Shown: one piece after another, positions 537-22,710 of the stretch
Position numbering within the stretch: position 1 is the stretch's first letter
Layout: every line of letters starts with the position of its first letter
Source of the DNA: a virus
Virus record (IMG/VR): IMGVR_UViG_3300010160_000234
Location: 1-23,062 of that record
Length of the DNA stretch: 23,062 bases
Reading direction: 5' to 3' (one strand)
The notes under the pieces: generated by a model
Databases searched by the model: none
Told to the model about the DNA's origin: nothing
What the model saw: the letters and a program-made list of their open reading frames with translations, nothing else
Program-made: the position numbers and the translations under genes

Positions 537-3449
537 CTAATCTTCCACTATAAGTTTACCTGTGTCAGCTCTTTCGGCATAAACAGTATAATAACAATTA
601 ATATCTTTACTAAAAATACCATCATTGGAAATGTACACACAATTATCCTTTACTTCTTTTACATATAATTTTTGATAATTTCCAAAGGGTGTTAGTGTAA
701 CTGTAATAGAATTTGGGTCAACCAACTTAGTCCAATAATTAGGTAATTCAATGACATTTGATTTCTCCAATATACCACGAACATATACACCAAATTCTGG
801 ACCTTCTAATGAACCATATCGAAGGCTCTTACCTTCTTTGGTTGGGTGGGGAATATTAAATGACTTGGTTGTAGCGTTTAGAGCACCAGAGATGCCAACA
901 CCACCAGAAACAACCAATGTACCAGTAGTTGTGTTGCTACTAGCAACACCACCATAGATGAATAACGAATTATTTGATGAGAAGAATAATAAGTTTGCTG
1001 TGTTACTTAAATAACCAGTAGAGTTGGCTATGATGACAGAGTTAGCTAAGTATCCGGAAGCAGATACACCACCGCCACCACCAGTTGATGTAATAGTAAT
1101 TGAGTTGGCTACACCATTTGTTGATAATGTTATACCAGAACCAGCAACAAGCGTTAATGGTGAATTGGCAATATTAGCAATAGCATCTGGTTGACCAGAA
1201 ATAATAACTCTGGAGAATGCTGTAGTTGGTCCACCAACGCCAGAAGCAGCAATCGCTGTATTAGTAACAGAAGTTATACGACCATTGGCTGATAGTGTAA
1301 TTACTGGAACAAATGTTGAGTTACCGTACACACCTGCTGTTGTAGATAATGTAGTAAAATCCGTATTGGCCAAAGCCTGTACTGCAACTATGTTGGCGTT
1401 CTGACTATTATCAACACCTTGAATGATTGTTATAGCCGTATTACTATAATCTAACCTTACGTTTTGGCTGGCATTTGTACCTTCAATAATAGTCATTCTA
1501 GCATTTTGGCCAACGTCTACACCTTGAACTATGGTGATAGCAGTATTGCTATAATCCAATCTTACGTTTTGGCTTACATCAGTACCTTCTATGATAGCCA
1601 TCCTAGCGTTTTGGCTAATATCTGTACCTTCAATTATGGTCATCCTAGAATTCTGACTAATATCGGTACCCTGAATTATGGCAATATTAGCATTGGCTGA
1701 ATTTAATCCAGATTGTAACAAAGCAATATTAGCATTTTGACTAACATCAACACCTTGTATAATTGTGATGGCTGTATTACTATAATCTATTCTTACATTT
1801 TGGTTAGAGTTTACGCCTTCAATAATTGTCATTCTAGAATTTTGACCAGAGTCCACACCTTCTATAATGGTCATCCTAGAATTTTGACCAATATCTGTAC
1901 CTTGAATAATTGTTATAAGACTATTACTATAATCTAACCTAACATTTTGACTAACATCCGTACCTTCAATTACAGTAAGCCTAGTATTTTGGCTAGTGTC
2001 TACTCCAATGGTTACGTTAGCTTGAGCATATGCTGCATTTGCATAAACACCTAAATCTATACCATTAACTACTGCTGTCGTAGCAACTAAATTGCCTTTT
2101 ACATAGTTAGCATTTAAATTTGCTGTTCTAAATGATGGATCTGTAAGGATAACATTATTATTGGAATCTAATTCAGGAGTATATCCTTGGAATATATAAA
2201 ATTCTTTTGTTCCAGAATCTCTGAACAGTCCAGCATGAGCATTGGTACCGTCATTATAATGTCCAGCAAAACCAATATCTTTGGTGTCACTAACATAGTT
2301 ACCAATACCTAAAATGATTAATGGATCAGCAACGGCAAGTTGTTGTACGTTCTGTGTGTTAATGTTACCTGTAAGAATTAAATTACCAGCAACAATTAAA
2401 TCTTGACTGATGGTAACATTACCCGATACAGTTTGATTTAATGAACCAGTTAAATTTAATTTATTAGAAATGTTAGTGTTTTGTGTAGCATCAACGCCTT
2501 CAATGATGGTCATCCTAGCATTTTGACCAGAATCTACACCTTGAATAATGGTAATAGCAGTATTACTATAATCTAATCTAACGTTCTGACTTACATCGGT
2601 GTTCTCAATGATGGTCATTCTAGCATTTTGGCTAGTATCAGTACCCTCGATTATAGTCATTCTAGAATTTTGACCAACATCTACACCTTGTATGATAGTG
2701 ATGGCGGTGTTACTGTAGTCTAACCTTACGTTTTGGCTTACATCAGTAGCTTCGATTACTGTAAGTCTGGTGTTTTGTGCTGTATCAGTACCTTCTATGA
2801 TGGTCATCCGAGCATTTTGGCTTACATCAGTACCTTCTATGACTGTCAACCTAGTATTTTGTGTGGCGTCAACACCTTGGGTATAGATTGTGTTTGCTGC
2901 TATAGTTGAGATACCAATTTGACCGATGTAACGGTAACCAGTAATGTAAACTGTATTTGCTGAAGTTAATGGTGTAGGTATTGTTGTACCAATAAAATTT
3001 AATACGCCAGCTTGATAATCAAAGAACCATTCGCCAGTTCCACCTGAACCCGAATCAAAAATCTTTGTTGCACCAACACCTGTTGTTGGATCGGATAATC
3101 CTGTTGTTCCTGCATAAGCAGAAATAAAATAAGTTGCACCAAATTCTGAAGGAATCCAATCGGTTAAATTTGTTTTCCAAGTAGGATATACTCCGCCTAC
3201 GGGAGTGGTTGTATTATCAGCACTGGTTTGAATTGCTGATGTTGTTTGATATGCTTGTACTATACCAGCAGTAGCAGATGCCGTAGCAGGAATACTATTG
3301 GCCTGAACCCAAACTTTATCACCACGATTAATAAAAGGACTGGCAGTAGCTTCGTTACTAGGACTTTTATTTGTCGAGGTGTCAGATTTAGCAACTCCGA
3401 AAAGTTTCTTATATAGTAGGTCGACTTTTTGTGAATCTGAAATTGCCAT
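537..3449 (-). CDS. Long tail fibre with two heptad-repeat shafts and a cyanophage-type C-terminal domain (970 aa)
   Basis: The N-terminus (MAISDSQKVDLLYKKLFG, then FINRGDKVWVQANSIP and EWFFDYQAGVLNFIGT) matches from memory a conserved opening of T4-like cyanophage fibre proteins, probably the virion attachment part. Residues about 192-326 are a first block of 14/21-residue repeats of the type DVSQNARMTIIEGT and NVRLDYSNTAITIIQG. A globular insert follows (LAVADPLIILG, KDIGFAGHYNDGTNAHAGLF), then a second repeat block at about 482-687. The C-terminal part has GGVGISGALNATTKSFNIPH, KSLRYGSLEGPEFGVYVRG and an ending of beta strands, also a recurrent cyanophage fibre terminus. Repeat lengths are multiples of seven, which suggests a trimeric coiled-coil shaft (inference). 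The ATG directly follows the TAG of the upstream fibre gene and has no strong Shine-Dalgarno, so coupled translation is likely. Role: host-recognition or long-fibre structural protein on the virion. Confidence 0.82.
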   Translation of the reverse strand: MAISDSQKVDLLYKKLFGVAKSDTSTNKSPSNEATASPFINRGDKVWVQANSIPATASATAGIVQAYQTTSAIQTSADNTTTPVGGVYPTWKTNLTDWIPSEFGATYFISAYAGTTGLSDPTTGVGATKIFDSGSGGTGEWFFDYQAGVLNFIGTTIPTPLTSANTVYITGYRYIGQIGISTIAANTIYTQGVDATQNTRLTVIEGTDVSQNARMTIIEGTDTAQNTRLTVIEATDVSQNVRLDYSNTAITIIQGVDVGQNSRMTIIEGTDTSQNARMTIIENTDVSQNVRLDYSNTAITIIQGVDSGQNARMTIIEGVDATQNTNISNKLNLTGSLNQTVSGNVTISQDLIVAGNLILTGNINTQNVQQLAVADPLIILGIGNYVSDTKDIGFAGHYNDGTNAHAGLFRDSGTKEFYIFQGYTPELDSNNNVILTDPSFRTANLNANYVKGNLVATTAVVNGIDLGVYANAAYAQANVTIGVDTSQNTRLTVIEGTDVSQNVRLDYSNSLITIIQGTDIGQNSRMTIIEGVDSGQNSRMTIIEGVNSNQNVRIDYSNTAITIIQGVDVSQNANIALLQSGLNSANANIAIIQGTDISQNSRMTIIEGTDISQNARMAIIEGTDVSQNVRLDYSNTAITIVQGVDVGQNARMTIIEGTNASQNVRLDYSNTAITIIQGVDNSQNANIVAVQALANTDFTTLSTTAGVYGNSTFVPVITLSANGRITSVTNTAIAASGVGGPTTAFSRVIISGQPDAIANIANSPLTLVAGSGITLSTNGVANSITITSTGGGGGVSASGYLANSVIIANSTGYLSNTANLLFFSSNNSLFIYGGVASSNTTTGTLVVSGGVGISGALNATTKSFNIPHPTKEGKSLRYGSLEGPEFGVYVRGILEKSNVIELPNYWTKLVDPNSITVTLTPFGNYQKLYVKEVKDNCVYISNDGIFSKDINCYYTVYAERADTGKLIVED
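1389..2006 (-). repeat. Second heptad-type repeat block of the 970-aa fibre
   Basis: Twelve QN-type units encode residues about 482-687. They mix 14-residue (DISQNSRMTIIEGT) and 21-residue (VSQNVRLDYSNTAITIIQG) forms, with one degenerate unit (SANANIAIIQG). The entry segment AQANVTIGVDTSQNTRLTVI nearly equals the entry of the 835-aa fibre. Confidence 0.85.
2472..2876 (-). repeat. First heptad-type repeat block of the 970-aa fibre
   Basis: Nine QN-type units encode residues about 192-326 and end in ATQNTNISNKLNLTGSLNQT. The same exit cassette is found in the 422-aa fibre. Confidence 0.85.
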
Positions 3450-5957
3450 CTAGTGACTCGCTGTTTGTAAAGTCAAAGCTGAAACAGTTTGACCCGATGT
3501 TAATTTTATTCTTACATAAATTTCATTAGTTGCCGTAGAGGAACTAGATACATCACCAAATGTACAAGTGTAACTTCCGTTAGTGACCAAACTATTTAGT
3601 ACAGCGGTACCACCCAAAGCACATCCGTTACTTCCGTTACCACCAGAGTTTGTACCTGGATGTCCTGATCCGGCATAAGCAGTACTCATATCCATCCAAC
3701 CATTAATTCCTGATGTTGTATCAATAGAACTTCCTGGTAAAGCAACCCAAAGACCAGCAATTGTTCCTGTAAATTTAATATCAAATTTAGAAACAGATGT
3801 TCTGACAAATACAAATGTAAAATATTGTGCACCTGTTCTACCTGTACTTAAATTGGGACCAGCTGGTAAATAACCAGTTGAATAGTTTGTTTGGTCGTGT
3901 TTTAATGTAGACGCAACTATTGTGGCATCATTTGCCGTTAATGTACTCGATTGACTATTAAATAAAGACGCACCTGCAGTATATGTTGGTGTATCGGTAG
4001 TTCCTGGATTTATAATTCTTGCAGCAAGTCCTGAACCTGTGCCTACAGTTGTACCAAAGGTGATGGAAGTTTCTTCCATTGCACTAGCAGTACCAGTTTT
4101 ATACAATACAGTATTGGCCAAGGCAGTTGTGAATACTTGTGAACCTGTTGAATAACTATTATCAACTGTAACGGAAGGTCCAGTTGAACTTGAACCAAAA
4201 CCAGAAATGATTGTTGATGTAGTGTTAACAGTTACAGAACCACTCGACACATATAAATTTCTTATTAATGGAGTAGTAATACCAACAGTAGCATAAGTGT
4301 TACTTGATGGTGCACCAAAAGCACCGCCTGCTGTACCCGTGAAGAATGTGTCTGAAGCTGGATACATATCACCACTCAACTTACTAACATCAACACCCAA
4401 TTTAAATGTCGTTGAACTATTGTAGTGTGGTACTGTACTTGAGTATGTCAATGATGTTGAAAGTGGAACAATGGATGCTGAAGCGAATGTTGGAGTTCCT
4501 GGTGCTGAGTTATCATAATACCAGAAAGCAACGTTAGTTCTATCACCTGTACCAGAATGTCCGATGTAAACTTCATTCCAACCATTGGCTACTACACCAG
4601 AAGCTCTAACGTTCATACTTGACCAGAAACCTAAAGCGGAACCAGTAATTGTTCCGTAGTCTACGTTGTTTAGTATTACTAAGTCATTATATGTTCCAGC
4701 ATTACCGTTACCTGCAACTAAAGTTCTTGTACCAGACGAAACGTTGTTTTTATAAGCAGTCAATACACCAGAATCACCAGGACCAACGTTGATGATTGTT
4801 GATGTTGTGTAACTAGATGTTCTCAATACAGTAGTTGATGTACCACCAGCCACACTTCTACTGTTTGCTGAGTTGTCTTGCTGTGTGAAGTTGGTCATTC
4901 TATATGGACCAACTAAAGTATTAATTGTTATAGCACGATAGGCACCAGGGAAATTTGATGGAGAAGCAGGTACTAATTTACCTAAGACTTGATTGATTTG
5001 AGCAAGACCGTTTGTAATATATGTTCCTGTTGTTAATGTTACTGCATTACTTACAAGTAGACCGGTTGTATTAGAACCCAAAACGATTGAGTTACCACTT
5101 AACGAACTTGAAATATTATTGGCGAAGTTGTATGCCGAGTTTGCTTTGTCATACGCCGTATTCATCTTAGCATCAGTTGCTGCGATGGCCGTATTACTGA
5201 AATCTAATCTTACGTTTTGGCTAGAATTGGTACCCTCAATAATGGTCATTCTAGCATTTTGACTTACATCCACACCTTGAATGATTGTTATAGCAGTATT
5301 ACTATAATCTAATCTAACGTTCTGACTTACATCGGTATTCTCGATGATAGTCATACGAGCATTTTGGCTAGTATCTACACCTTGGATGATTGTTATTGCT
5401 GAATTACTATAATCTAACCTGACGTTTTGACTAGCGTCCACGCTTTCTATGATGGCCATTCTAGCGTTCTGGCTTACATCTGTACCTTCTATGATGGTCA
5501 TCCTAGCATTTTGGCTTACATCGGTACCTTGAATAATAGTAATTGCTGTGTTACTATAATCCAACCTTACGTTCTGGCTAGAGTTTACACCATCACTTAC
5601 AGTCATTCTAGAATTCTGACCAGAATCTACACCTTGAATTATGGCGATAGCTGTATTACTATAATCTAACCTAGAATTCTGGCTAGAATTAGTACCTTCA
5701 ATTACAGTAAGTCTTGTATTTTGTGTTGCATCTACGCCTATTGTTACGTTTGCTTGGTCATAGGCGGCTTGAGCTTTTACCGAATCCGTCGATGTAGGCC
5801 CACCAATAATTCGAACACCAGTATTAGAACCAATGTAAAGTGTATTGGATACAAAAGAATATGCTAATTGACCATCATCTAAAGTTGTTGGTGTGGTATT
5901 TGAATATGATCTAAGAATCTGTATTGTAGATATATTTGAGGTATTTGCTACTGGCAT
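3450..5957 (-). CDS. Tail fibre with heptad-repeat shaft and large C-terminal receptor-binding-like region (835 aa)
   Basis: The first ~60 residues (LRSYSNTTPTTLDDGQLAYS, then FVSNTLYIGSNTGVRIIGG) resemble the short attachment segment found at the start of many phage fibre proteins. A linker AQAAYDQANVTIGVDATQN leads into about eleven QN-type repeats (residues about 74-259), built from the same 14- and 21-residue units as in the next gene. After KMNTAYDKANSAYNFANN comes a long Ser/Thr/Asn-rich beta region of more than 500 residues. It ends with FTFVFVRTSVSKFDIKFTG, GLWVALPGS, GWMDMSTAYAGSG and GNGSNGCALGG. That terminal pattern is familiar to me from marine phage fibres and is the probable distal receptor-facing part (inference). 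The start codon overlaps the upstream stop as TAATG, and the TAG stop abuts the next ATG. Confidence 0.8.
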   Translation of the reverse strand: MPVANTSNISTIQILRSYSNTTPTTLDDGQLAYSFVSNTLYIGSNTGVRIIGGPTSTDSVKAQAAYDQANVTIGVDATQNTRLTVIEGTNSSQNSRLDYSNTAIAIIQGVDSGQNSRMTVSDGVNSSQNVRLDYSNTAITIIQGTDVSQNARMTIIEGTDVSQNARMAIIESVDASQNVRLDYSNSAITIIQGVDTSQNARMTIIENTDVSQNVRLDYSNTAITIIQGVDVSQNARMTIIEGTNSSQNVRLDFSNTAIAATDAKMNTAYDKANSAYNFANNISSSLSGNSIVLGSNTTGLLVSNAVTLTTGTYITNGLAQINQVLGKLVPASPSNFPGAYRAITINTLVGPYRMTNFTQQDNSANSRSVAGGTSTTVLRTSSYTTSTIINVGPGDSGVLTAYKNNVSSGTRTLVAGNGNAGTYNDLVILNNVDYGTITGSALGFWSSMNVRASGVVANGWNEVYIGHSGTGDRTNVAFWYYDNSAPGTPTFASASIVPLSTSLTYSSTVPHYNSSTTFKLGVDVSKLSGDMYPASDTFFTGTAGGAFGAPSSNTYATVGITTPLIRNLYVSSGSVTVNTTSTIISGFGSSSTGPSVTVDNSYSTGSQVFTTALANTVLYKTGTASAMEETSITFGTTVGTGSGLAARIINPGTTDTPTYTAGASLFNSQSSTLTANDATIVASTLKHDQTNYSTGYLPAGPNLSTGRTGAQYFTFVFVRTSVSKFDIKFTGTIAGLWVALPGSSIDTTSGINGWMDMSTAYAGSGHPGTNSGGNGSNGCALGGTAVLNSLVTNGSYTCTFGDVSSSSTATNEIYVRIKLTSGQTVSALTLQTASH
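5180..5738 (-). repeat. Heptad-type repeat block of the 835-aa fibre
   Basis: Eleven QN-type units encode residues about 74-259. DNA of individual units is nearly identical to units in the neighbouring 970-aa gene. The block leads into an alanine/asparagine-rich helix-like stretch (KMNTAYDKANSAYNFANN). Confidence 0.85.
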
Positions 5958-6202
5958 TAAAAGAATCCGTTATCTATGATTAGTCTAGAATTTTCAGCAG
6001 GAGCAATAACGAATGAGTTGGTTGCAGCAACATATGTAACAACATCACGGTCTTGAGCGCCAGTTATATCTAAATCAGTGGCACTTTTTAAAGCAAATCG
6101 TCCACCTCCACCTCCACCATAACTTATGGCAGTTACTTTAGGTTGTGAAGCACTTACCTGAACCTTGATGGTGGAAGGTGGTAGTACTGTGACGTTTGGC
6201 AT
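5957..6202 (-). CDS. Small conserved-type virion/fibre-associated protein (81 aa)
   Basis: This protein starts MPNVTVLPPSTIKVQVSASQ, has a glycine run (YGGGGGG, residues about 28-34), then a segment with DLDITGAQDRDVVTYVAATN and a C-terminus ending IIDNGFF. The latter part resembles a short motif found in T4-like cyanophage fibre-cluster proteins, of the form 'variable DGD-V-YN...F-A'. I know of no defined function. It sits four bases downstream of the 111-aa gene and its TAA overlaps the start of the 835-aa fibre (TAATG). Size and position would suit a fibre attachment or assembly protein, but this is a guess from context. There are no membrane segments and no signal peptide. Confidence 0.72.
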   Translation of the reverse strand: MPNVTVLPPSTIKVQVSASQPKVTAISYGGGGGGRFALKSATDLDITGAQDRDVVTYVAATNSFVIAPAENSRLIIDNGFF

Positions 6203-6206
6203 ATTA

Positions 6207-6542
6207 TTACCTTGTCACAGAAGGAGAAACATCAATAACACCTTCTAAGATTCTAGTTACAGTACCAACTCCATCAGTAAGAGTGGTATCATAAACATAT
6301 CTTCCAGGTGAAATGTTTGCTGTTGTAGCAGCACTTAATGTTAGTGTGATGATTGCGTTTGTTGTATCGATACTAGTAACAAACGTTGCCGTGGCATTGG
6401 ATGAGTAGTATGATTTACGAACTTGACTGTTGGCTGTGTAACCAATTAGATTATAATTGTTACCGTATACATCATCCAAAGTAATTGTCGTATTAAATGT
6501 AGCACCTTTCTCAAGGTATAGATTTGTATAAGCAGCTGGCAT
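6207..6542 (-). CDS. Small beta-rich virion-type protein of unknown function (111 aa)
   Basis: The protein opens MPAAYTNLYLEKGATFNTTI and continues with a Tyr-rich central part (QVRKSYYSSNATATFVTSID) and then LSAATTANISPGRYVYDTTL. The alternating hydrophobic pattern predicts a compact beta sandwich. Similar small proteins with the 'YLEKGATF...GYTA-SQ-RKSYYSS...ISPGRYVYD' layout occur in fibre clusters of T4-like cyanophages; this is recalled, not searched. The start is supported by an AGGA Shine-Dalgarno (6550-6553) seven bases upstream. It is the first gene after the only intergenic gap and therefore the likely first cistron of the distal fibre operon. Its exact role is unknown. Confidence 0.75.
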   Translation of the reverse strand: MPAAYTNLYLEKGATFNTTITLDDVYGNNYNLIGYTANSQVRKSYYSSNATATFVTSIDTTNAIITLTLSAATTANISPGRYVYDTTLTDGVGTVTRILEGVIDVSPSVTR

Positions 6543-6549
6543 TTTAAAT

Positions 6550-6553
6550 TCCT
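6550..6553 (-). promoter_or_regulatory. Ribosome binding site of the 111-aa gene
   Basis: AGGA on the minus strand lies seven bases before the ATG at 6542. It supports this start in a region that is otherwise non-coding. Confidence 0.6.
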
Positions 6554-6573
6554 GAATTCATTATTCTATTGGT

Positions 6574-6581
6574 TATTTAGT
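6574..6581 (-). promoter_or_regulatory. Possible T4-type late promoter
   Basis: The minus strand reads ACTAAATA, which matches six of eight positions of the T4 late promoter box TATAAATA. It lies about 32 bases upstream of the ATG of the 111-aa gene, in the only substantial intergenic gap of the window. That is where a new late transcript for the distal fibre genes would be expected. In AT-rich DNA such a match can arise by chance, so the call rests mainly on position. Confidence 0.35.
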
Positions 6582-6674
6582 TAATACCCATCTTAGCTCA
6601 AAAGTAAAATCGCTTTTTGGAACCCTGGATTTCGTCCGGAGAAATTTTAGGCCGGAACGCAAAAAATCGAAATT

Positions 6675-7925
6675 TTAGGATTTCTTAATTTGCTCTACTT
6701 CCGCTTTAAGTTCTTTGATGGCTTCAATAATCAAAGGAATAAGACGTTCATATCGTACAGTCAAATATTTGTCATCCACAGGTGCTGGAGCAACTGCTTC
6801 CGGTTGTATTTTTTGTACTTCCTGTGCGGAGACACCAACTTCTCTGTGAGTTGATTCTAATCCCAATCCTTTTGCTGTATCATTCAGTTCATAATAAAAA
6901 CCGGTAAGTGTTAGTAATTTATCTAAAGCACCATCAATAGTACCTAACTTGTTTTTCAGTCTATCGTCAGAAACATATGCCGTAATGTTACCAACTGCTT
7001 TAATTTCGTTGGTTGTAAATGATGGTGAACCAGTACCTACATATAAACCGTTAAATTGTACATTATTTGCTGTATTTACTGGTTGGTTCATCGAGAAAGT
7101 ATTAGCATTCGTTAATGATGCGTACATAGTGAATGTATTACCAGAATTTAATACATCCTTAACCCATTTCGTTGTAGCAATCTGTGTATTTGAAGTATTT
7201 ACAGTAGCACTATCAGCCAAAGATAAACCAGACAATACCGTAATCCAAGTATTAGAAATTAATGTCGGTGTTCTAAAATTACGAGTAAGATATAAATCTT
7301 GTGTTGTTATATTTGACGTTGCAACAAGATTTGCTGTTGATATCGTGTCGGAAGCCGTAACATTCTTTGTTGTGACCGTATTAGAAAGAGTAATATTTTG
7401 TGCACCAATTGTGGTATTTGAAGTAATTGCTTGGAAAATACCTAATGTTGTTCCATTAATATTTGGTGAAGTAATTACAGTATTTGCTTGTAACGAATCA
7501 GTATATGTGGGACCAGTTGAATTAATTACAGCACTTTTTAGTATATTGTTTGCCGTGATGGCATTTGCTAGAGAATAATCAGTTCTCACTATGGTATTTG
7601 CAATAACTTGATTTGTAACCAATGTTTTTGCAATAATTGCATCATTTGTGACTTGGAAGGCATAATTTTGACCAGTAACAAATACATTAGCTGACGCTGT
7701 TACATCACCAACTGCAGAAGTTGTTCCGGAAACAACAGCTGTTCCGAGAATGGCGGTATTTGGTACAGATAAACCTGTTCCGAGACCTGCTAAGTACAGA
7801 GTACCTGTATTTTTTGTATAGTTATTAGCACCTAAGTTGTTTAATTCACTAGCCACTAAGTTTTGCTGAGCGACCAAATCACCAAAGGTGTTATTATAAC
7901 TAAGAATATTTACCGTATTTGCCAT
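6675..7925 (-). CDS. Tail fibre with C-terminal peptidase S74 intramolecular chaperone (416 aa)
   Basis: The N-terminus (LSYNNTFGDLVAQQNLVASE, LGANNYTKNTGTLYLAG) is of the type seen at the start of cyanophage/pelagiphage fibre proteins. The middle is a Thr/Asn/Val-rich beta stretch and includes ADSATVNTSNTQIATTKWV, a segment of a common fibre motif. The last ~98 residues form an S74 domain: SDDRLKNKLGTIDGALDKL, then GFYYEL, REVGVSAQEVQKIQPEAV, LTVRYERLIPLIIEAIKEL and a final Lys/Glu helix. In this family the domain trimerises the fibre and cuts itself off at the serine of the SD-RLK motif, here Ser319 (bases 6969-6971). Cleavage would leave a 318-residue mature fibre. The gene starts two bases after the 72-aa gene, with GGAAC as a weak ribosome site. 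It is followed by the 132-bp gap. Confidence 0.87.
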   Translation of the reverse strand: MANTVNILSYNNTFGDLVAQQNLVASELNNLGANNYTKNTGTLYLAGLGTGLSVPNTAILGTAVVSGTTSAVGDVTASANVFVTGQNYAFQVTNDAIIAKTLVTNQVIANTIVRTDYSLANAITANNILKSAVINSTGPTYTDSLQANTVITSPNINGTTLGIFQAITSNTTIGAQNITLSNTVTTKNVTASDTISTANLVATSNITTQDLYLTRNFRTPTLISNTWITVLSGLSLADSATVNTSNTQIATTKWVKDVLNSGNTFTMYASLTNANTFSMNQPVNTANNVQFNGLYVGTGSPSFTTNEIKAVGNITAYVSDDRLKNKLGTIDGALDKLLTLTGFYYELNDTAKGLGLESTHREVGVSAQEVQKIQPEAVAPAPVDDKYLTVRYERLIPLIIEAIKELKAEVEQIKKS

Positions 7926-7927
7926 TG

Positions 7928-8146
7928 TTAGTTCCTAGTTGATAAAAGACGTAAAAGTTCTTTAATTTCTTTTACGTCATTTTTTACATCGTTAATTTCT
8001 GATTTAATAATATTTATTTCTATTTTTTGATTATTAAGTAATTTTGATTTTACTTTATAATCCTCTAAACCTGGTTGGTCTGTATTAATTAGAGCCATTG
8101 TTGCCGTGTCTCGTAGAAATGTTGTTCCTGGTACTTTAACTAACAT
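7928..8146 (-). CDS. Small protein with C-terminal coiled coil (72 aa), function unknown
   Basis: The first ~25 residues (MLVKVPGTTFLRDTATMALI) form a conserved-looking head that I associate with small proteins in T4-like cyanophage/pelagiphage structural clusters. From about residue 30 the sequence is strongly helical, with isoleucine and leucine in heptad spacing (IEINIIKSEINDVKNDVKEI, then KELLRLL), so a short coiled-coil oligomer is likely. It begins one base after the TAA of the 2099-aa gene and ends two bases before the S74 fibre, pointing to coupled late expression. It might act as a fibre or baseplate connector or chaperone; the sequence alone does not decide this. Confidence 0.8.
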   Translation of the reverse strand: MLVKVPGTTFLRDTATMALINTDQPGLEDYKVKSKLLNNQKIEINIIKSEINDVKNDVKEIKELLRLLSTRN

Positions 8147-8147
8147 A

Positions 8148-11100
8148 TTATGTTACCGCCGGTAATGCTATAGCACGAATATCATCCAACACAGGAACAG
8201 CAGTTTTATCTGATGTTGCCAAAACCACTTTAATAGCAAACTGGCTGAAGTTGTTGTATGTTTGTCCGTTTACTGTACTTGTATAAGAAACATAATTTTG
8301 TGCTGTTCCACCACTTCCTGGTGCAGCTACATATTCATATATGTTGTTTCTTGTTTCTGAATACTTAGAACTACCACTATTAATGGTAGTCATTAATTGC
8401 CAATTACCATCTTCAAATAATTGTGTGTCGGTTCTGGATAGAATTTTGTAATACACATAAATGTCGGTATTGACTGGTCTATAAGCAGTAAGATACACTC
8501 TCAAATCACCAGAATCAAATCCTTGATCCAAAACAACTTTCTTAGTGTAGTATTTTGCGAGACCGTTACCACCAGATTTAGATGTTTCACCAGCAATCGT
8601 AATAACAGCATTTGCATTTCCTGTCAACCTTGTGTTTCCTGTCGATTCGGAAAGTGTAATTATTGGAGTTGTTGCATATCCATATCCACCAGAAGTGATG
8701 TAGATATTGTTAATATTACCTTGTGATGAAACATTTGCTACTGCTACTGCACCTGAACCATAACCGTTAGCAGATGTAACCGTAACTAATATGGTGTTTG
8801 CGTTATAGCCACCGCCTGTATTGGCAACTGAAATCATTGAATTGGTTAATTCAAGATTGTTAATATTCCAACGAATGGTGTATACACTCAATCCATCATC
8901 AGAGATGATTGGAGACACGGCATCGTCTGTTGTACTCATATTGGCATACAATGTGAATGATGTATTTGAGTCAGCGACGAGTACACGTTGTCCGTAACCA
9001 TCATTCAGGTAAATATCATCATATGTTGGTGTACCATATTTTCCTGGATTCACTCCTGCTGTTGCTGCTGTCGTGAATGTGGAATTAATTGTTGCTGCAT
9101 ATGAGTAATTTAATGATGTACTTCCAGGTAAGAAATCTGTTGTTGTTATGTTCAATGCATGAATTGGAACATTAGTATTGGCAGAAGTTACAATCTTACT
9201 TGACGTTGTATTTGGATTCAGATAGTAACTGATATCATTTTCAACAACTTTTCTGTATGGAAGTCTATTTGGTACAACAAATTGCAGAGTTGGATTTACA
9301 GCTGTTGAGAACACACAACGATTTATGACAAACATCATAGATTCGTTTTGGTCTGCTGTCCATGTTTGTAAATTTTGTGAAACAAACAATGCACCAACAT
9401 ACGGAGCAGAATTGATTTTTGTTATTGTTGATGGTGTTGTATCAGTGGGTAAATTCTTCGTTGAAGAAGCGATAGCACTATCACCCAACTGCGCTGTATA
9501 AATTGTATATTCATTAGATGTTGGACATCTTACAATCATCGAATATAACTTGTTAGATTCCAAATAAACAGGAGCAGGAAATTTAAATATTGTTGCAGTA
9601 GTGTCATCCAAATAATGTGGATTATCACTTGTTTTAATATATTCCAATGTTAATGTTACTTGTGAATTATCCAATGTGTCACCATTTGGATAACCATTAG
9701 TTGTACCAACAATCGATACTGTTACTGGTGCGTAACCGGTTGATGGTTTTGTTTTAAAAAATAATTTGACAGAATCAATAAAAACACCATTGGGATAATT
9801 TTCTTTATCGACAATAAATGTTTGAGCAACTGGATCCCAAACAACTGTATAAGTGTAGGAGCTAGTATTTACTCTTGTTGCGGTACTAATAAATGTATTT
9901 TTTGCTGAATCAATTGAAGCAGCATAATTTAAACCTTGTTTTGTTGCCTGTAAACCAGAAGCATAAAATGTTGCTTGAGAGAATGTAGTTGCAGAATCTA
10001 AATTGTTTGCAATTCGATTGTCAACTCTAAAACTTCTTTCACCTGTATGGAATGTTGCACCTGGAATAGCAAACACTCCAGATAACATACCAACTTCATT
10101 TGTCTTTAATGAACCAATGGAGTAAATGTCATTATTGGCTGCTGTAATAGCACTACCCAAGGTTGCAAGTTTAGTTGTACCGTTATATGAACTGATAGAT
10201 GCACTTTGACCTGCACCTGTTCCATTAATTACATATAATGTGTTACCGGCATAAAAATTAGTTGTATTTGATGCAAGAGGTGATAATGTAATTGTAGTTG
10301 TTGTATTTGCATTTGTAATCAAACCACCCAAATGTGTATAAGAATCAATTACTCCACTTGCTGTCGTTGTTTGATATTGACCTGAAGTATTGAATTGTGC
10401 ATTCTGAATTGTTGCACCACCATTAAAATTCGTATTGACAATATCACCAATTACATATAAACGAGCAGTCGTATTTGCTGAAGGATTAACATAGTAAGAA
10501 AGAACTTTTGCAATTGGTGTAAAATTTCCACTAGAATAGTAACCAATAATGTCACCATCTTTAAAACTACCTGTTACACCAGTTAATTCCAATATGTTTG
10601 GTTTACGAATATACTTATTAACATTTGTTCCATCAAAATAAGTATTCACAGCCGTATTGACAAGCATACCATAAGAGTTAAAGAATACAAATTGACTGCG
10701 TATATATGGAAGCACAGAAACGTCTTGGATGTATCCACCAGTTTCAATATAACTAGAATTTAACTTATCGTAGTTACCTAAGATTGTAGTTTGTTGTTGT
10801 TGTGTATAGTTCGTTACCTGATTAGTGAGCCAGTTTCCACCTCTAGCAATCGTAGCTACAGAAGTTGTTGCAATAGTAGTTTTCCAATCACCCACCGACA
10901 ATACATTAATTGAATCACTGGCACGATATACTTGTAAGTTTGGATCGACTATTAATAAATCTGGTGATTTAGTTGTGTCAACCCAATTGTCCATTGGAGG
11001 ACTTAAAGATACGACACCTTCATTCAATACAACACCGAAAGGATTTAAATTCACAGTACGTGAAGCAATTGGTTGAGTTACAACATTTGATGTTGCATAT

Positions 11101-14100
11101 GGTAGTGTGTAGAAGTTTGAAGAACCAGATTTAGAAATCTTATAGTTTAAGTTATTAGCTGAAGTAGAATCAATTTGACCCATATTATACACTAATGATA
11201 GTGATTGTAATGGGAAATTAGATACGTTTTGTGATGCCGTCATCTGTTTGGTTCTACGATTAATAGTAACCAAATAATCGATGTTCGAGGTGTCGGATGT
11301 AGAATAACCAGAGAAATCATCAACTAAAATACCATTTTTAAAACGATTTAGACCGTTAGTATCTGGAATTTGTAATGCCGCAGCATCTTTCTCCAATATA
11401 TTCAATGCTGTGTAGTATTCCAGGTTATTGACACGACTTTCCAAATTAGAAATATCACTCATCATCCAGCGCTTGTGTTTCACTTTTTCAAGTGAAAGAT
11501 TTGGTAAACTACCTGTTGTTACTTCACTAGGAATATAAGCGGTATATGGATCATGATACAGATTGGCAATAAGCAATGCACCATCTGGTTCAGTTGGTAA
11601 TAAAGGATTATCTGAAGGAGTTCCCTGTATAATACTAAACGCTCTATCTTTACTCAACACCAACTTATCATAACGACCAAAATAATATGAATAATCAGAA
11701 GTGAAGGAGGATAAATCAACAGGCATATAAGCACCAGCAGCATTAGAACCTGAACCACTAGTTCTGATAGTAAAGTTTGCTTGAGCATTTGTCAATGCAG
11801 GTCTAAAATCTATAACATCTCTTAACTGATAAACTGTTCCTGATGTAGCAGTATAACTTGGTATAGAAGCATAACTTTCTGGAGAAGAAGAAACCGGAGT
11901 CAAATATGATAGTACACTATAATAACCATCACCACCAGTTGTCTCATAGTAATCCAACAATACCAACATATTACCCTGTATTGGTGTTTGACCAATTTTC
12001 AAAGTGAGTGTTGCAAAATCGTAGTAAGAATCTCTTTGACCATTATCAAATGTGAATCTACTTGTCACATCATAAGAAGAATCTGTCAACATTGAATTGG
12101 TAGCAGCCGTTGCAGCTGATTTAGTATCGATAATTTTTACAATACGTTTAACGTCTGTGATGTATAATTTTTGTGGTTGACCTGCTGTAACTAAACCGGC
12201 ATTCTGCACATATACTTGTGCATTTGTTAAATCAACTTTTGTGTAAGTTGCAACTGAGGTGCCTGTCAAATTAACACCTGTTGTATTTGCTGTTTTTAAG
12301 TTTTTAGCTTTTAGTACATAACTGGTGTCATTACCATTTCTGATAGAAGCTTTAGCAATAACAGTCGCTGTGAATGCTCCTAAATCGGAAGTTGGTGTTA
12401 TGAATTTGGCCGTTGAACCTGAACCGGACATTTCTACCCGTCTGCTTCCTGTTGTCCATACCAAGTTTTGTCCTGCGGTTAATCCACTTGATAATGGGTC
12501 GGTCACAATAATCCGGAAGTTTTGTAAAATATTATCAGCTGAGATGGTTGAACCAATAGTTGTATCGGTTGTAATTGGAAAAGAAATTGTTGCAACCGGC
12601 GCACTACCAAAAGTTAATGTTCCAACAATGTTACCACCAGAAACACCAAACGATACGTTTCTGAATACTTGAACTGTACTATAAGAAGTGTCGGTAACAG
12701 AACTCACGTAACGATTACCTAAGTTAAATAGTAACTCTGGATTGCTTACGTTTTGTAGAACTGTATCACCTAATGCATTATTAGATACTTTGCTACTGTC
12801 GGCAATTGCAGCGTTTGCCGTAATTGAATATGGTGTACCGGATGTAGACTTGATTATCGTTTCATAATCAGTAACATCAAAACGTAAGGTAAATACTGAT
12901 GTGGTATCTGGTGCAACTGTAAATGGTTTATCAACAAAAGCTATTTTAGCAGCCGAACTTGGTGAATAAGATGAAATTACTCTAAAGTCTCCGGCAGATG
13001 TTCCTTTGTCAATACTGACTGTTACATGATAGTAAGCATTAGCATTTGCAGAAAACTGTGCTGTGTGTGGTAATGTAATATAATTGTTGTTGGCAGAAGC
13101 TGCAGCAACGTTTGCTGACAATGTTTGATTTTGTAAACCAAATACATAGGCTTTATATGTGTATGTATTTGCAGCTGCAGTATTTGAAGCGCTAGAGTAT
13201 ATCATATTTCTGATATAACCAGTCGCAGCCAATGTTGAACTATACGTGGTTGTATTTGTTGTTGATACGTTTGATGCTATGACGGTGTGGAAATCTACCT
13301 GTGGTAGTGTACTCACATCAAAAACACCGTTAGCAGTATTAACATAGAAATAATTTCCATAATCAATATAAGTTGGATTATTATTTGCTGTATATGTTGT
13401 TCTTGCACGGTCATTAGTTAAAGTAACATCACTCTGTGTTTCTAATCTATATCCACGAACATAAGAAATACCTTTAGAAATACCCAAGTCATATTTTGCT
13501 GAATTTATTGTATTTGCTTTTGGTGTTAGTGTATAGTCTTTGACGATAAAATCGCCGTTTGTATCGTTTGTGCGTTTGGCCAAGTAATCATCAATAATAG
13601 AATATACTGTACCATCAACTTGTTTTAGAATATTACCATTTTCCAAACGAACTAACTCAATAAATGAACTATCATTTCCTAAATCAAGTGTTCTAGTTTC
13701 CAATGTTAAAGAAATTGCATATCTATCAGCGCCAGGAGCTTGATAGTTGGAAGCAGATATTGCTGGATCCAATAAAGAAGTGTCGTCTGTATAACTAACC
13801 AAAGTTTCACTTGCATTCAAACCAACTCTAACTGATGGTGTTGAACTATATTTTTCTAAAACAATTGTATCTTCGGTGACAGCAACAAAGTTGCCTTTAA
13901 CATAAAATACTCCACTAGAGATGGAAGCAATAGAACTTAAACCTGTTGCTATGTTTGTTGCTGTTGAAGTAATAATTGTTGCACTATAATTTGAATTCTC
14001 CAGAGAAACCGTATCACCAGAAGCAAATTTTGAACCTGTAATATAACTAATAATCAATGTTGGTGAATCTCCAGCAGCACCAGAAGCTGTCGTTGTTGCT

Positions 14101-14447
14101 TCAACTGTTTTTAAAACTTTTGCAATAACACTATAATCTGAATTATGTACAACACCATTACTAAAAGTGGAAGCGTAAATTGGTGAACCACCAATACTGG
14201 TGTTCAGTTTTAAATAATATACATTTTGATTTACTGTTACTTTGCCGCCAGATACCGGTGTGTTTTGTGTAAAGATTGCATCAGCAAAACTAGTAATTTG
14301 ATTCTGTAGGATTGTTTGAGATTGCGTTAATTCTCTGGCCTGAACAGCATATCCAGGTTTAAACAGAATTCTATGATAATTTTTTGTTGAATCAAAATCA
14401 TCATAGTACGGATCTACATTAAAATCGCCAGTGAAATTGGTTGTCAT
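8148..14447 (-). CDS. Giant virion structural / baseplate protein, cyanophage DUF4815-like type (2099 aa)
   Basis: This is the largest gene of the window. The N-terminus has PYYDDFDSTKNYHRILFKPG and AVQARELTQSQTILQNQI, a signature I recognise from large structural proteins of T4-like cyanophages carrying DUF4815-like sequence. Near residue 1000 lies a second recurrent segment: NLESRVNNLEYYTALNILE, then LQIPDTNGLNRFKNGILVDD. Residues about 1871-1957 hold a GYGY-type beta repeat (GGGYNANTILV, SGGYGYATTPIITL). The C-terminus (VVLDQGFDSGDLRVYLTAYR, DIYVYYKILS, VPVLDDIRAIAL) again matches that family. The rest is beta-rich with high Ser/Thr/Asn. It follows gp8 in order, as peripheral baseplate components do in T4, so a baseplate-rim or fibre-attachment role is inferred. 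The start is supported by GGAAAG a few bases upstream. Confidence 0.8.
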   Translation of the reverse strand: MTTNFTGDFNVDPYYDDFDSTKNYHRILFKPGYAVQARELTQSQTILQNQITSFADAIFTQNTPVSGGKVTVNQNVYYLKLNTSIGGSPIYASTFSNGVVHNSDYSVIAKVLKTVEATTTASGAAGDSPTLIISYITGSKFASGDTVSLENSNYSATIITSTATNIATGLSSIASISSGVFYVKGNFVAVTEDTIVLEKYSSTPSVRVGLNASETLVSYTDDTSLLDPAISASNYQAPGADRYAISLTLETRTLDLGNDSSFIELVRLENGNILKQVDGTVYSIIDDYLAKRTNDTNGDFIVKDYTLTPKANTINSAKYDLGISKGISYVRGYRLETQSDVTLTNDRARTTYTANNNPTYIDYGNYFYVNTANGVFDVSTLPQVDFHTVIASNVSTTNTTTYSSTLAATGYIRNMIYSSASNTAAANTYTYKAYVFGLQNQTLSANVAAASANNNYITLPHTAQFSANANAYYHVTVSIDKGTSAGDFRVISSYSPSSAAKIAFVDKPFTVAPDTTSVFTLRFDVTDYETIIKSTSGTPYSITANAAIADSSKVSNNALGDTVLQNVSNPELLFNLGNRYVSSVTDTSYSTVQVFRNVSFGVSGGNIVGTLTFGSAPVATISFPITTDTTIGSTISADNILQNFRIIVTDPLSSGLTAGQNLVWTTGSRRVEMSGSGSTAKFITPTSDLGAFTATVIAKASIRNGNDTSYVLKAKNLKTANTTGVNLTGTSVATYTKVDLTNAQVYVQNAGLVTAGQPQKLYITDVKRIVKIIDTKSAATAATNSMLTDSSYDVTSRFTFDNGQRDSYYDFATLTLKIGQTPIQGNMLVLLDYYETTGGDGYYSVLSYLTPVSSSPESYASIPSYTATSGTVYQLRDVIDFRPALTNAQANFTIRTSGSGSNAAGAYMPVDLSSFTSDYSYYFGRYDKLVLSKDRAFSIIQGTPSDNPLLPTEPDGALLIANLYHDPYTAYIPSEVTTGSLPNLSLEKVKHKRWMMSDISNLESRVNNLEYYTALNILEKDAAALQIPDTNGLNRFKNGILVDDFSGYSTSDTSNIDYLVTINRRTKQMTASQNVSNFPLQSLSLVYNMGQIDSTSANNLNYKISKSGSSNFYTLPYATSNVVTQPIASRTVNLNPFGVVLNEGVVSLSPPMDNWVDTTKSPDLLIVDPNLQVYRASDSINVLSVGDWKTTIATTSVATIARGGNWLTNQVTNYTQQQQTTILGNYDKLNSSYIETGGYIQDVSVLPYIRSQFVFFNSYGMLVNTAVNTYFDGTNVNKYIRKPNILELTGVTGSFKDGDIIGYYSSGNFTPIAKVLSYYVNPSANTTARLYVIGDIVNTNFNGGATIQNAQFNTSGQYQTTTASGVIDSYTHLGGLITNANTTTTITLSPLASNTTNFYAGNTLYVINGTGAGQSASISSYNGTTKLATLGSAITAANNDIYSIGSLKTNEVGMLSGVFAIPGATFHTGERSFRVDNRIANNLDSATTFSQATFYASGLQATKQGLNYAASIDSAKNTFISTATRVNTSSYTYTVVWDPVAQTFIVDKENYPNGVFIDSVKLFFKTKPSTGYAPVTVSIVGTTNGYPNGDTLDNSQVTLTLEYIKTSDNPHYLDDTTATIFKFPAPVYLESNKLYSMIVRCPTSNEYTIYTAQLGDSAIASSTKNLPTDTTPSTITKINSAPYVGALFVSQNLQTWTADQNESMMFVINRCVFSTAVNPTLQFVVPNRLPYRKVVENDISYYLNPNTTSSKIVTSANTNVPIHALNITTTDFLPGSTSLNYSYAATINSTFTTAATAGVNPGKYGTPTYDDIYLNDGYGQRVLVADSNTSFTLYANMSTTDDAVSPIISDDGLSVYTIRWNINNLELTNSMISVANTGGGYNANTILVTVTSANGYGSGAVAVANVSSQGNINNIYITSGGYGYATTPIITLSESTGNTRLTGNANAVITIAGETSKSGGNGLAKYYTKKVVLDQGFDSGDLRVYLTAYRPVNTDIYVYYKILSRTDTQLFEDGNWQLMTTINSGSSKYSETRNNIYEYVAAPGSGGTAQNYVSYTSTVNGQTYNNFSQFAIKVVLATSDKTAVPVLDDIRAIALPAVT

Positions 14448-14461
14448 TTTTTCTTTCCAAA

Positions 14462-15865
14462 TTAAAATCTAAGTACAACACGAAATTGTTCCGTGCCATC
14501 AGGACTTCTCGATATTGCTGTTCTATTTTCTATGTAGGTCATGTATCCAGACATTACAATAAAATCGGGTTCATTGTGACTTAAAACAGTTCGAACTGCA
14601 GAGTTTATTGCTCCAGTTGCATCTTGAAATAGTGGTTGATTATTAATAATTGTACCTTCAGTATTTATGACCTTCAATATATTGGTTGAGGCATTAAAAC
14701 TAGCAACGGTTGCAAAAAATGTTGCTGTTGATAAACTAGAACCCTGATATACTGTTTGACCCACCACAAAAGAACCACTGCCAGGAGAAACAAATAATTG
14801 TGATGTTACATCGTATCTATCATCGGTTGCTAAATTTGGCAGTTCACTAGTTGATTGTGGATTTAATATCAGACCTAATTGATAATAAATTAAATCTGTT
14901 GGAATAGTACCACCCTCATCACCTGTGAAATCTAAAGATAACATTACATTATTACAACCTAGTTCTGAAATTGGATCAATTGAATGACCACCAGGAGGTG
15001 AGACAGGTGCAATTGCAACCGCTGCAACATTTGGTGTATTAAATCCAGCAATAGTATCAATTGTAATATCGGCATAGGTATAGTTTGTACCAGTATTAAT
15101 CATTGTCACATCAGTTAGATATCCTGCTGCATTAACTACAGCCGATGCGGATGCTCCGGTTCCATCTCCAACAATATTAATTGTTACTCCAGTAGGTTCA
15201 TAACCTTTGCCTATGGTTGTTACATTTATCACATCGATTGATCCTGCACCTGCGGCCGAAACAGCAGGACTCGGTAATGACGAACCAAGGGGACAAGGTA
15301 TCCAGTTTTCATCCAAAAATTTCTGTTTAACACCGCCATTGATAGCATACATGAATTTCCATTTGTATCCATCATTTGTTTGAATTAAGAACGTTGAGTC
15401 GAATGTTCCAGGCAAAAACTGTGGCTGGTCCGTAGAAGGCGCACCATTGTTATTCCATAGGCATTTAAAAATTTGGTCAAATTTATTTCTAACATAGAAA
15501 TTTTTAGATATAAGATTTTGTGAATCTACGGCAAACATATCCGCATGGTCATCATAATAATCATACACAACACCTGAAGTCCAATCTCTCCTCGGAATAA
15601 CAGGTGATACATCAGACGTTATTATTTTTTTTACTGCAATAATATTTTTAAAAACTTTTTTAAGTGAATATTGGTCTTGTGTTGGTACTGGAGGATTTTG
15701 ATAATCGTCCCAAGGAGTAGTTTTTCCAATAAAGGCATACAAATTATTATTGACTAAACTTACATTTTGATATGCTGTGGCTGAAGGAGCAAAGTAATAC
15801 TGAAAAACTTCGTATATCTTACTACCAGATAATAGTAGAGATGAATTAGCGGTTTGAATCGACAT
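14462..15865 (-). CDS. gp8: Baseplate wedge subunit gp8-like (467 aa)
   Basis: The protein resembles cyanophage gp8 baseplate wedge proteins. Recognisable parts are LYAFIGKTTPWDD (residues 42-54), SPVIPRRDWTSGVVYDYYDD (87-106), a FYVRNKFDQIFKCLWNNNGA segment (123-142) and DGYKWKFMYAIN (165-176). In T4, gp8 dimerises and joins the gp10-gp7-gp8-gp6-gp53-gp25 wedge. At about residues 210-290 it carries GYGY-like strands (TTIGKGYEPTGVTINIVGDG, NTGTNYTYADI) that look like an inserted beta module. T4 gp8 is about 330 residues, so this version is longer, partly because of that module. The Shine-Dalgarno AGGA (15873-15876) is seven bases before the ATG. It is preceded by a short fibre gene rather than directly by the gp7-like gene. 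Confidence 0.8.
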   Translation of the reverse strand: MSIQTANSSLLLSGSKIYEVFQYYFAPSATAYQNVSLVNNNLYAFIGKTTPWDDYQNPPVPTQDQYSLKKVFKNIIAVKKIITSDVSPVIPRRDWTSGVVYDYYDDHADMFAVDSQNLISKNFYVRNKFDQIFKCLWNNNGAPSTDQPQFLPGTFDSTFLIQTNDGYKWKFMYAINGGVKQKFLDENWIPCPLGSSLPSPAVSAAGAGSIDVINVTTIGKGYEPTGVTINIVGDGTGASASAVVNAAGYLTDVTMINTGTNYTYADITIDTIAGFNTPNVAAVAIAPVSPPGGHSIDPISELGCNNVMLSLDFTGDEGGTIPTDLIYYQLGLILNPQSTSELPNLATDDRYDVTSQLFVSPGSGSFVVGQTVYQGSSLSTATFFATVASFNASTNILKVINTEGTIINNQPLFQDATGAINSAVRTVLSHNEPDFIVMSGYMTYIENRTAISRSPDGTEQFRVVLRF

Positions 15866-15872
15866 TATATAG

Positions 15873-15876
15873 TCCT
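15873..15876 (-). promoter_or_regulatory. Ribosome binding site of gp8-like gene
   Basis: AGGA on the minus strand, seven bases before the ATG at 15865, lies in a 27-base gap. It fixes the gp8-like start. Confidence 0.55.
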
Positions 15877-15892
15877 ATTAATGTTTTTATTG

Positions 15893-17161
15893 TTATTTCG
15901 TAATAGCTACAAAAGTATTGGCAACATCTGTGCCAAAGGAAACATAACTAGCACGAATACTAGATGTTAATGGTATTGAAACTGTTGTTGCACCGTTTGT
16001 TGAATTAAGTGCTGAACAACCGTGCGTAAATGTTACCGATCCACCCGAGGTGTTTGTAATCCATAAATCTACAGTTTTACCAACATTAAAGTTTGAAAAG
16101 CTTACCGTTACACCACTAGATGTGTTGGCTCTAACTAATGAATTATTAGCAAAGTCGATTGTAACAGCTGTTTGTGCACCAGGATATACTAAAGGTAAAT
16201 AGACTAATCCTTTTCCTGGACTAATCACACCACCAGTATATACGTTGCCAGTAATACCGGCACCACCATATACTAATAAACCACCATTTGTATTGGCAGT
16301 AGAACTATCCATTGGGAGACTTTGTAAACCTAATGTAAGAGCATTAGAATCCAAATAAGACCTTGTAAAACCGCCCACATAATTTCTATAACTTGATGCA
16401 CCTAACTGCATTGGATAAAGTCCAGTCTCACCGGCATTTATAGTGTTTGCCACAACAGTATTTGCAGAAACAATACTACTAATCGTTAAATTACCAGAAA
16501 CTGTTTGATTTAGTGAACCGGTTAAATTAACTTTATTGGAAATGTTGGTGTTTTGTGTTGCATCCACACCTTGAATGATGGTGATAGCAGTATTGCTATA
16601 ATCTAACCTGACGTTTTGGCTAGTATCGGTACCTTGAATGATGGTGATAGCAGTATTGCTATAATCTAACCTGACGTTTTGGCTAGTATCGGTACCTTGA
16701 ATGATGGTGATAGCAGTATTGCTATAATCTAACCTGACGTTTTGACTTGTGTTAACACCTTCAATAATGGTGATAGCAGTATTTTGACCAACATTAGTAC
16801 CTTCAATTATGGTCATTCTAGCGTTCTGGCTAGAATCGGTACCTTCAATTACAGTAAGTCTAGTATTCTGTGTAGCGTCTACACCCTGAATTATTGTTAT
16901 AGTATTCGATACTATGGTATTTGATGTTATAGTATTCGATACTATGATATTTGATGTTATAGTATTCGATACTATGGTATTAGATGTTATACTTTGACTG
17001 ACAACCAAACTATTATTTGAATATAAGTTTGCAGCCAAATTCTTCACAGTCATTTTATTGGTCAGACCAGTCACTAGGTCGACTGTTATAACTAAATTTT
17101 TTGCTGTATTTGAATTTAACTGAGTTACTTCAGTAAGTTCTGTTATTTTTATTGATGACAT
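15893..17161 (-). CDS. Short tail fibre with pentad and heptad repeats (422 aa)
   Basis: The N-terminus MSSIKITELTEVTQLNSNTA and KNLVITVDLVTGLTNKMTVK resembles the attachment segments of phage fibre proteins. Residues about 58-87 consist of the ten-residue unit ITSNTIVSNT repeated three times. Residues about 93-206 hold seven QN-type repeats like those of the two distal fibres. The exit cassette NKVNLTGSLNQTVSGNLTIS is nearly the same as in the 970-aa fibre. The C-terminal ~90 residues (VDLWITNTSGGSVTFTHGCS, then GTDVANTFVAITK) match a small beta domain common at fibre ends in marine T4-like phages. It starts eight bases after the upstream stop, with AAGG upstream of the ATG. It sits between the gp7-like and gp8-like genes, where T4 has no fibre gene. 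Confidence 0.78.
   Translation of the reverse strand: MSSIKITELTEVTQLNSNTAKNLVITVDLVTGLTNKMTVKNLAANLYSNNSLVVSQSITSNTIVSNTITSNIIVSNTITSNTIVSNTITIIQGVDATQNTRLTVIEGTDSSQNARMTIIEGTNVGQNTAITIIEGVNTSQNVRLDYSNTAITIIQGTDTSQNVRLDYSNTAITIIQGTDTSQNVRLDYSNTAITIIQGVDATQNTNISNKVNLTGSLNQTVSGNLTISSIVSANTVVANTINAGETGLYPMQLGASSYRNYVGGFTRSYLDSNALTLGLQSLPMDSSTANTNGGLLVYGGAGITGNVYTGGVISPGKGLVYLPLVYPGAQTAVTIDFANNSLVRANTSSGVTVSFSNFNVGKTVDLWITNTSGGSVTFTHGCSALNSTNGATTVSIPLTSSIRASYVSFGTDVANTFVAITK
16544..16885 (-). repeat. Heptad-type protein repeat block in the 422-aa fibre
   Basis: Seven QN repeat units encode residues about 93-206. They are 14-residue (GTDSSQNARMTIIE) and 21-residue (TSQNVRLDYSNTAITIIQG) forms. 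The unit length is a multiple of seven, with aliphatic residues at a fixed spacing. Confidence 0.85.
16569..16744. repeat. Perfect 63-bp tandem repeat, nearly three copies
   Basis: Units begin at 16569, 16632 and 16695 (plus-strand CCTTGAATGATGGTGATAG). They are identical until about 16744, where the third copy diverges. Each unit encodes one 21-residue DTSQNVRLDYSNTAITIIQG repeat. Identity at synonymous positions indicates a recent duplication. Confidence 0.92.
16901..16990. repeat. 30-bp tandem repeat, three copies
   Basis: Three adjacent 30-bp units begin AGTATTCGATACTATG at 16901, 16931 and 16961 and differ by only a few bases. They encode the ten-residue SNTIT/SNTIV repeat. Each unit contains ATAGTAT-TCG-ATACTAT, a short inverted repeat. 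Confidence 0.92.
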
Positions 17162-22175: not shown

Positions 22176-22710
22176 TTAATTTACTCCATTGTTTTTTTGT
22201 TGCATTAGAGAGTTTATTTCTGTATTCCGTTGTATTGAATATAGACAACGGTTCTTTCCATGCATTTTTTACAGAATTGGAAATATTTTCTAATGTTTCT
22301 TTGTTATAAATTCCGGTTTTTCCTTTATTCCACGGAATATTTCCTTTTTTTACTCCTCCAATACCAGGTCTTTTAATTCCTTTATTATAAGGAACAATTC
22401 CTTGCATGGCCACACTTTTTTTCTTTCTTTGTTCTTCGGTATGTTTATAACCTGAAACACCATCACCACCCTCGGTTTTATTTAAAAGTATACCTGTACC
22501 CAAATCTTTACGGCCATACCAACGAATATACCGCTTTTCTAAAGCTAATGCGCCAATTTCTGTTAAATTTGATTCCATAACAATAATTTTCATTTTATCT
22601 TTAGGTATAGAAATACCTTGGTGTTTGTTCCATGCTCGAAAATCTTTACCTTTACCAATATAGTATGGTGAACCATCACTTTTTCTAATATATGCATAAA
22701 CATAATACAT
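22162..22710 (-). CDS. GIY-YIG homing endonuclease with NUMOD3-like DNA-binding tail (182 aa), free-standing
   Basis: Residues 1-90 are a GIY-YIG nuclease domain. The two signature strands are YVYAYI (3-8) and YYIGKG (16-21), followed by the catalytic arginine in KDFRAWNKH (Arg25) and the metal-binding glutamate in [12 protein letters not shown] (Glu58). The [13 protein letters not shown] segment (75-87) closes the domain. The C-terminal part has NUMOD3-like elements: [32 protein letters not shown] and repeated helices with Lys/Asn ([30 protein letters not shown]), which bind DNA in this family. Such enzymes are mobile genes that cut allelic sites lacking them. It starts in a TAATG overlap with the gp25 stop and ends 14 bases inside gp6. 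All key catalytic residues are present, so it may be active. It has no role in tail structure. Confidence 0.92.
22184..22187 (-). promoter_or_regulatory. Ribosome binding site of gp6 inside the endonuclease gene
   Basis: GGAG on the minus strand lies eight bases before the gp6 ATG, within the last codons of the GIY-YIG gene. gp6 therefore has its own initiation signal despite the intruding gene. Confidence 0.7.

Follow-up and report, generated by a model that had tools for sequence, protein, structure and literature searches.

The fibritin of phage T4 (wac) is a phage protein with a parallel three-stranded α-helical shaft, and its relatives swap terminal domains (PMC3797505). It is a collar fiber in which the coil segments are broken by loops and which possesses N- and C-terminal domains of its own. 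The PCoil of EPclA, from the collagen-like tail fibers of EHEC prophages, is a heptad shaft of low hydrophobicity with the pattern Ala-x-x-Ala/Ser-x-x-Ser; it is helical by experiment, and electron microscopy is consistent with a trimeric coil of ∼16 nm (PMC3368898). The stalks of trimeric autotransporter adhesins are likewise long modular trimeric coils, with polar layers in the core and a tolerance for stutters (PMC4786415). A 4-residue insertion is the classic tolerated stutter, 18 residues making 5 turns, and 2-residue insertions form β-layers in α/β coiled coils (PMC4786415). Parallel trimers are specified by the motif Arg(g)-h(a)xxh(d)-Glu(e), here RhxxhE (PMC3653964). Here, we compare with these systems a family of repeat units, termed QN units, from three fiber genes of one uncultured phage. 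With a probability of roughly 85%, judged from sequence, their shafts form a parallel, three-stranded, left-handed α-helical coiled coil.

The window, a virus record of 23,062 bases, is the baseplate region of a T4-like phage, with all real genes on the minus strand. Its gene content comprises a gp25-like gene, a GIY-YIG-type endonuclease, gp6 (phrog_219), a 979-aa wedge protein, a 422-aa fiber (F422), and a further wedge protein (phrog_438), followed by a 2099-aa DUF4815 protein, a 72-aa open reading frame (ORF), an S74-chaperone fiber (F416), and 111- and 81-aa proteins and, in the last part, fibers of 835 aa (F835) and 970 aa (F970) and a Gly-rich ORF. The gp25-like gene was assigned from its sequence rather than through a database match, and the endonuclease likewise from sequence. 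The endonuclease ORF (22162 to 22710) lies between gp25 and gp6; the DNA matches of four relatives (L105, L108, L111, and L113) cover gp25 and gp6 and skip the GIY-YIG stretch, which therefore looks like a recent homing insertion.

F970 (537 to 3449, minus strand), defined by its ORF and PHROG matches, consists in order of an N-terminal domain (phrog_9417), shaft 1, a middle domain, shaft 2, and a C-terminal domain (phrog_17490). Shaft 1 (2406 to 2873) has nine units with lengths of 14, 14, 14, 21, 14, 14, 21, and 14 residues plus a cap unit, and shaft 2 (1326 to 2003) has 12, of 14, 21, 14, 14, 21, 28, 14, 14, 21, 14, and 21 residues plus a cap unit. Between the two shafts, at about residues 345 to 475, is a domain with the consensus GFAGHYNDGTNAHxGxxRDSxxKEFYxFxGYTPE, which also stands between two shafts in a related locus (L132) and seems to be a recurring mid-fiber module. 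F835 (3450 to 5957, minus strand) has an N-terminal domain, a shaft of 11 units (5142 to 5735; 14, 21, 14, 21, 14, 14, 21, 14, 21, and 14 residues plus a cap unit), and, at the C terminus, a conserved head about 540 aa long (phrog_8578). F422 (15893 to 17161, minus strand) is flanked by two baseplate wedge genes, and its shaft (16478 to 16882) has seven units (14, 14, 14, 21, 21, and 21 residues plus a cap unit). The minus-strand segment at 16895 to 16991, directly before the F422 shaft, is a 10-residue SNTI(V/T) repeat with a 30-bp period and 95% matches; it is not heptad and is younger than the QN units.

Counted by the anchor [VT][DN]xxQN, the units number 7 in F422, 11 in F835, and 9 + 12 in F970. 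The sequence-only reading had likewise reported about 39 units, and its coordinates agree with the positions obtained here (about 1370 to 2873 in F970, 5142 to 5735 in F835, and about 16525 to 16882 in F422). Regular units make up 34/39, 21 of them with 14 residues and 13 with 21; the others are one 28-residue double and four terminal caps that fit the motif in its first half only. In the regular units, Q5 and N6 are invariant (34/34), only D or N occurs at position 2, and 33/34 have R8. The repeats are far beyond chance, with Tandem Repeats Finder scores of up to 380. A scan of six large window proteins found no QN units outside F422, F835, and F970. When Pfam, PHROGs, and the PDB were searched by sequence, the QN repeat had no relative with a name or a solved structure, and literature searches found no description of it.

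Both unit lengths share one heptad register. In the 14-residue unit, D2 is at a, Q5 at d, N6 at e, R8 at g, M/L9 at a, I12 at d, E13 at e, and G14 at f; the 21-residue unit has an extra heptad, with L9 at a, S12 at d, I16 at a, and I19 at d. This bears out the register proposed earlier (a = D, L/M, and I; d = Q, S, and I). The units would thus be of two and three heptads, respectively, and the core would alternate a polar pair of layers (Asp at a, Gln at d) with an apolar pair (Leu/Met at a, Ile at d), to which the longer unit would add one Leu/Ser heptad. Polar layers are half of the a/d layers within units. The suggestion that the QN pair itself forms the polar layer, as asparagine does in trimeric adhesins, does not stand in that form, because in this register the Asn is at e and the polar core consists of Asp at a and Gln at d. 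These conserved Asp/Gln layers may set the chain register or bind ions or water.

The spacing of the anchors was analyzed in 101 ORFs from uncultured phages, in which the inter-anchor segments, clustered at 60% identity, gave 79 types. The lengths of 53/79 types are multiples of 7, and 17/79 leave a remainder of 4 (a stutter), so that 70/79 fit a coiled coil and 9/79 fall into other classes; the nominal P value of 1e-28 should not be taken at face value, because the clusters share ancestry and are not fully independent. A control repeat, GN[AI][NT], from other shaft types in relatives bearing the same C-terminal head, was nearly uniform over the seven classes (11, 17, 12, 12, 7, 8, and 9). Thus, the rule does not apply to these proteins in general. 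Segments with a remainder of 2 in six loci (L246, L252, L264 to L266, and L354) have a common element resembling SVDTLARTTAN or SIDEYARTTAN and could be natural phage examples of β-layers.

Relatives also possess Ala-rich inserts between QN units, which allowed the register to be tested independently of the units. In 31 non-redundant segments, with the frame set by the QN anchor and scoring begun past the first 14 residues, the a/d positions exceeded the remaining ones in hydropathy by 2.05 units, against a standard deviation of 0.28 and a maximum of 1.08 in 5000 random frames; by this measure, the inserts keep the a/d register of the units. The RhxxhE motif was counted in a slightly wider form than published, admitting Met at d and Asp for Glu. 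The window fibers contain 19 such motifs (12, 5, and 2), all starting from unit position 8, which is g, compared to 0.14, 0.06, and 0.01 (∼0.2 in all) in shuffled proteins. In relatives, the motif is present in 116/169 distinct 14-residue units and, at position 15 (also g), in 18/91 distinct 21-residue units. Against a coil speak the Gly found at f in the majority of units and the stretches of T-I-I, both of which lower local helix propensity, and the polar character of half of the core layers. On these tests, together with the occurrence of the unit in a canonical coiled coil of a cultured Pectobacterium phage (see below), the trimeric coiled-coil shaft put forward by the sequence-only reading is by far the best interpretation, and we infer the trimer itself.

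Structure prediction, which covered single chains, gave no confident fold for the shaft and is weak evidence both for and against the coil. For an 84-aa block with 13 natural rows, the best AlphaFold2 model had a mean pLDDT of 64 and the other four 35 to 40; this low-confidence model had no DSSP elements and no Foldseek match. In the model of full-length F835, the shaft (residues 84 to 265) scored below 50 with scattered strands, a moderate-confidence helix (263 to 285) directly followed the last unit, and a β-rich head began at about residue 335, with a pLDDT of ∼90 over much of its length. Foldseek gave nothing usable for the shaft; its significant matches in a viral library were phage proteins whose function is unknown, including several homologs of the C-terminal head.

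The DNA of the units had been described as very similar, which is not the case for the arrays as a whole: mean identity is only 70% among the 14-residue units and 79% among the 21-residue units. Identical residues share a codon in 55% and 58% of cases, respectively, close to the 51% and 46% expected from codon usage, and silent sites between units are close to random, near saturation. Most units are therefore old and held together by selection on the protein. Near-identical DNA is limited to a few unit pairs; F422 units 5 and 6 are identical (63/63), and residues 811 to 950 of F970 match residues 583 to 722 of F835 with 89% DNA identity and the same unit order, including a rare IIEN ending. 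Both cases point to recent copying.

Other structures for the units were weighed against these results. The head of YadA has a period of 14 residues. The shorter unit has the same length, and the units might form a β-roll of this kind or a trimeric β-prism with 7-residue faces, as the T-I-I and V-I-E stretches, the conserved Gly, the low-confidence strands in the monomer model, and the SVAIG-type repeats adjoining QN units in one relative would also allow; a head made of left-handed β-roll repeats is described in PMC9543794. A step of 7 would be unusual within a 14-residue β turn, however, and β structure leaves unexplained the remainder-4 class, the RhxxhE motifs, and the a/d register common to the units and the Ala-rich heptads, so we consider it improbable. 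Leucine-rich repeats deserve still less credence, close to none. A profile of block A1 matched Internalin-J (3bz5) in the PDB with an E value of 8e-8 through xDVSQNxxL, and a leucine-rich-repeat protein of Flavobacterium was likewise retrieved, but the best single stretch reached only an E value of 0.035; we rejected the Internalin-J match because its total sums many weak repeat matches. Moreover, the L175 to L177 arrays consist, except for one 32-residue segment, of 14-residue units only, which fall short of the 20 or more residues (20 to 30) that each leucine-rich repeat takes.

A dimeric coiled coil, or a heterotrimer composed of the three fiber proteins, seems very unlikely. One unit serves in all three shafts, and the tracts of F970 and F835 with 89% DNA identity share their unit order, as mixed assembly might suggest, but DNA exchange between arrays explains this sharing, and the three proteins differ in their N- and C-terminal domains and in shaft length. 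Phage fiber shafts are, moreover, generally homotrimers.

The sequence-only reading had further proposed that unit number changes by recombination, which holds in relatives. In this phage itself, no change of number was seen among three assemblies: two near-identical copies (L009 and L102; 99.9 to 100% identity) have the same unit counts as the window. Compared to L160, whose flanks are 87% identical, the window has 7 units versus 6. L101 and L104 (∼96%) differ by exactly 105 bp, equal to 14 + 21 residues, and L246 and L252 (98.5%) differ by one 42-bp unit. L241 and L253, with flanks of 99.4 to 99.6% identity over 7 kb, have 8 and 4 units, respectively, a step of 168 bp; an internal unit variant of L241 is entirely gone from L253, which makes a simple assembler collapse unlikely. 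In L176 and L177 (98.4%), counts are equal and a two-unit block is replaced, with 33 mismatches in 120 bp compared to ∼1 per 60 over most of the rest. Judged by these pairs, recombination among units is established for the family and quick change for one or two of the pairs.

Whole shafts vary as well. More than 120 loci encode the C-terminal head of F835 (phrog_8578). Most of those that were read combine it with another type of shaft (ANGAF/ANTA heptads, TSNTAITSN repeats, or GNANIGN repeats). Orthologs of F422 located before the same wedge gene have QN units, ANGAF heptads, or unrelated middles. By this comparison, the shaft is a portable module, and relatives exchange whole shafts. An N-terminal Mtd_N domain is not claimed, as it was matched in 2/8 relatives and not in F835. 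One relative (L107, 4411 to 7005) encodes a fiber in which QN units come after several SVAIGxxAG repeats in a row, an arrangement reminiscent of trimeric adhesins; the SVAIGxxAG repeats look like a YadA head by eye, with no Pfam hit at an E value of 0.05. The genome collection gave only two matches. One, a leucine-rich-repeat protein (L238), was rejected as unrelated; the other (L237), a phage-like 3.5-kb contig in a Neisseriaceae metagenome bin, has QN units and the 111-aa gene of the phage group and is probably a binned phage fragment, possibly a hint to the host.

Most likely, the shaft acts as a passive trimeric spacer and determines how far the fiber tip reaches, with N- and C-terminal domains that would attach the rod to the baseplate and bear the tip. 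Baseplate attachment and receptor binding at the tip are what we infer from gene position and established knowledge of phage fibers; fiber length would matter for host contact. At the coiled-coil rise of 0.148 nm per residue, the predicted rods would measure ∼21 nm (F970 shaft 1), ∼31 nm (F970 shaft 2), ∼28 to 31 nm (F835), and ∼18 nm (F422). Crossovers between units would add or remove whole units, so that length changes would preserve both the reading frame and the heptad register. Relatives differ in unit number, have units exchanged between positions, or have another shaft type in place of the whole shaft. We suggest, tentatively, that the fiber genes of one phage might form a common recombination pool through the shared unit, with blocks of units moving inside one gene or from gene to gene; this would tune the shafts of several fibers in whole heptads, quickly enough for strains to differ, and so adjust the reach of receptor-binding tips across a population. 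Shaft length does vary between strains in nature, and natural length variants could be used to test what fiber length does for the phage. The sequence rule (steps of 7 with 4-residue stutters) offers a way to recognize coiled-coil fiber shafts that have no Pfam family and that single-chain prediction missed here.

Compared to fibritin, the shafts in the window are near-perfect 14/21 tandem repeats and occur in three other fiber genes; F970, F835, and F422 matched no Pfam family above its cutoff, hence neither a fibritin N-terminal domain nor a foldon, and none of their PHROG matches was named for fibritin. Trimeric autotransporter adhesins have Asn at d layers, whereas N6 is at e here and Asp and Gln make up the polar core; Pfam matched no YadA-type membrane anchor on the window fibers. 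The PCoil resembles the Ala-rich segments between QN units in relatives and differs from the window shafts in being joined to collagen and, within the accessible part of its description, in having neither a QN unit nor a 14/21 tandem repeat (PMC3368898). The closest cultured match is ORF22 (WOL25703.1) of Pectobacterium phage PcaP2EGY, a cultured phage with a 51-kb record, whose unit reads DTRMTAIEN KDATQDARMTTIEG VNTEQNTRLTTLET. There, the 14-residue QN-type unit sits in a long canonical Ile/Val/Leu heptad stretch with 13 RhxxhE motifs, and QN/QD units form only part of the shaft. The shaft family described here, well supported as a coiled coil and with clear natural variation of length in whole units, thus represents one variant within a known kind of phage fiber shaft.
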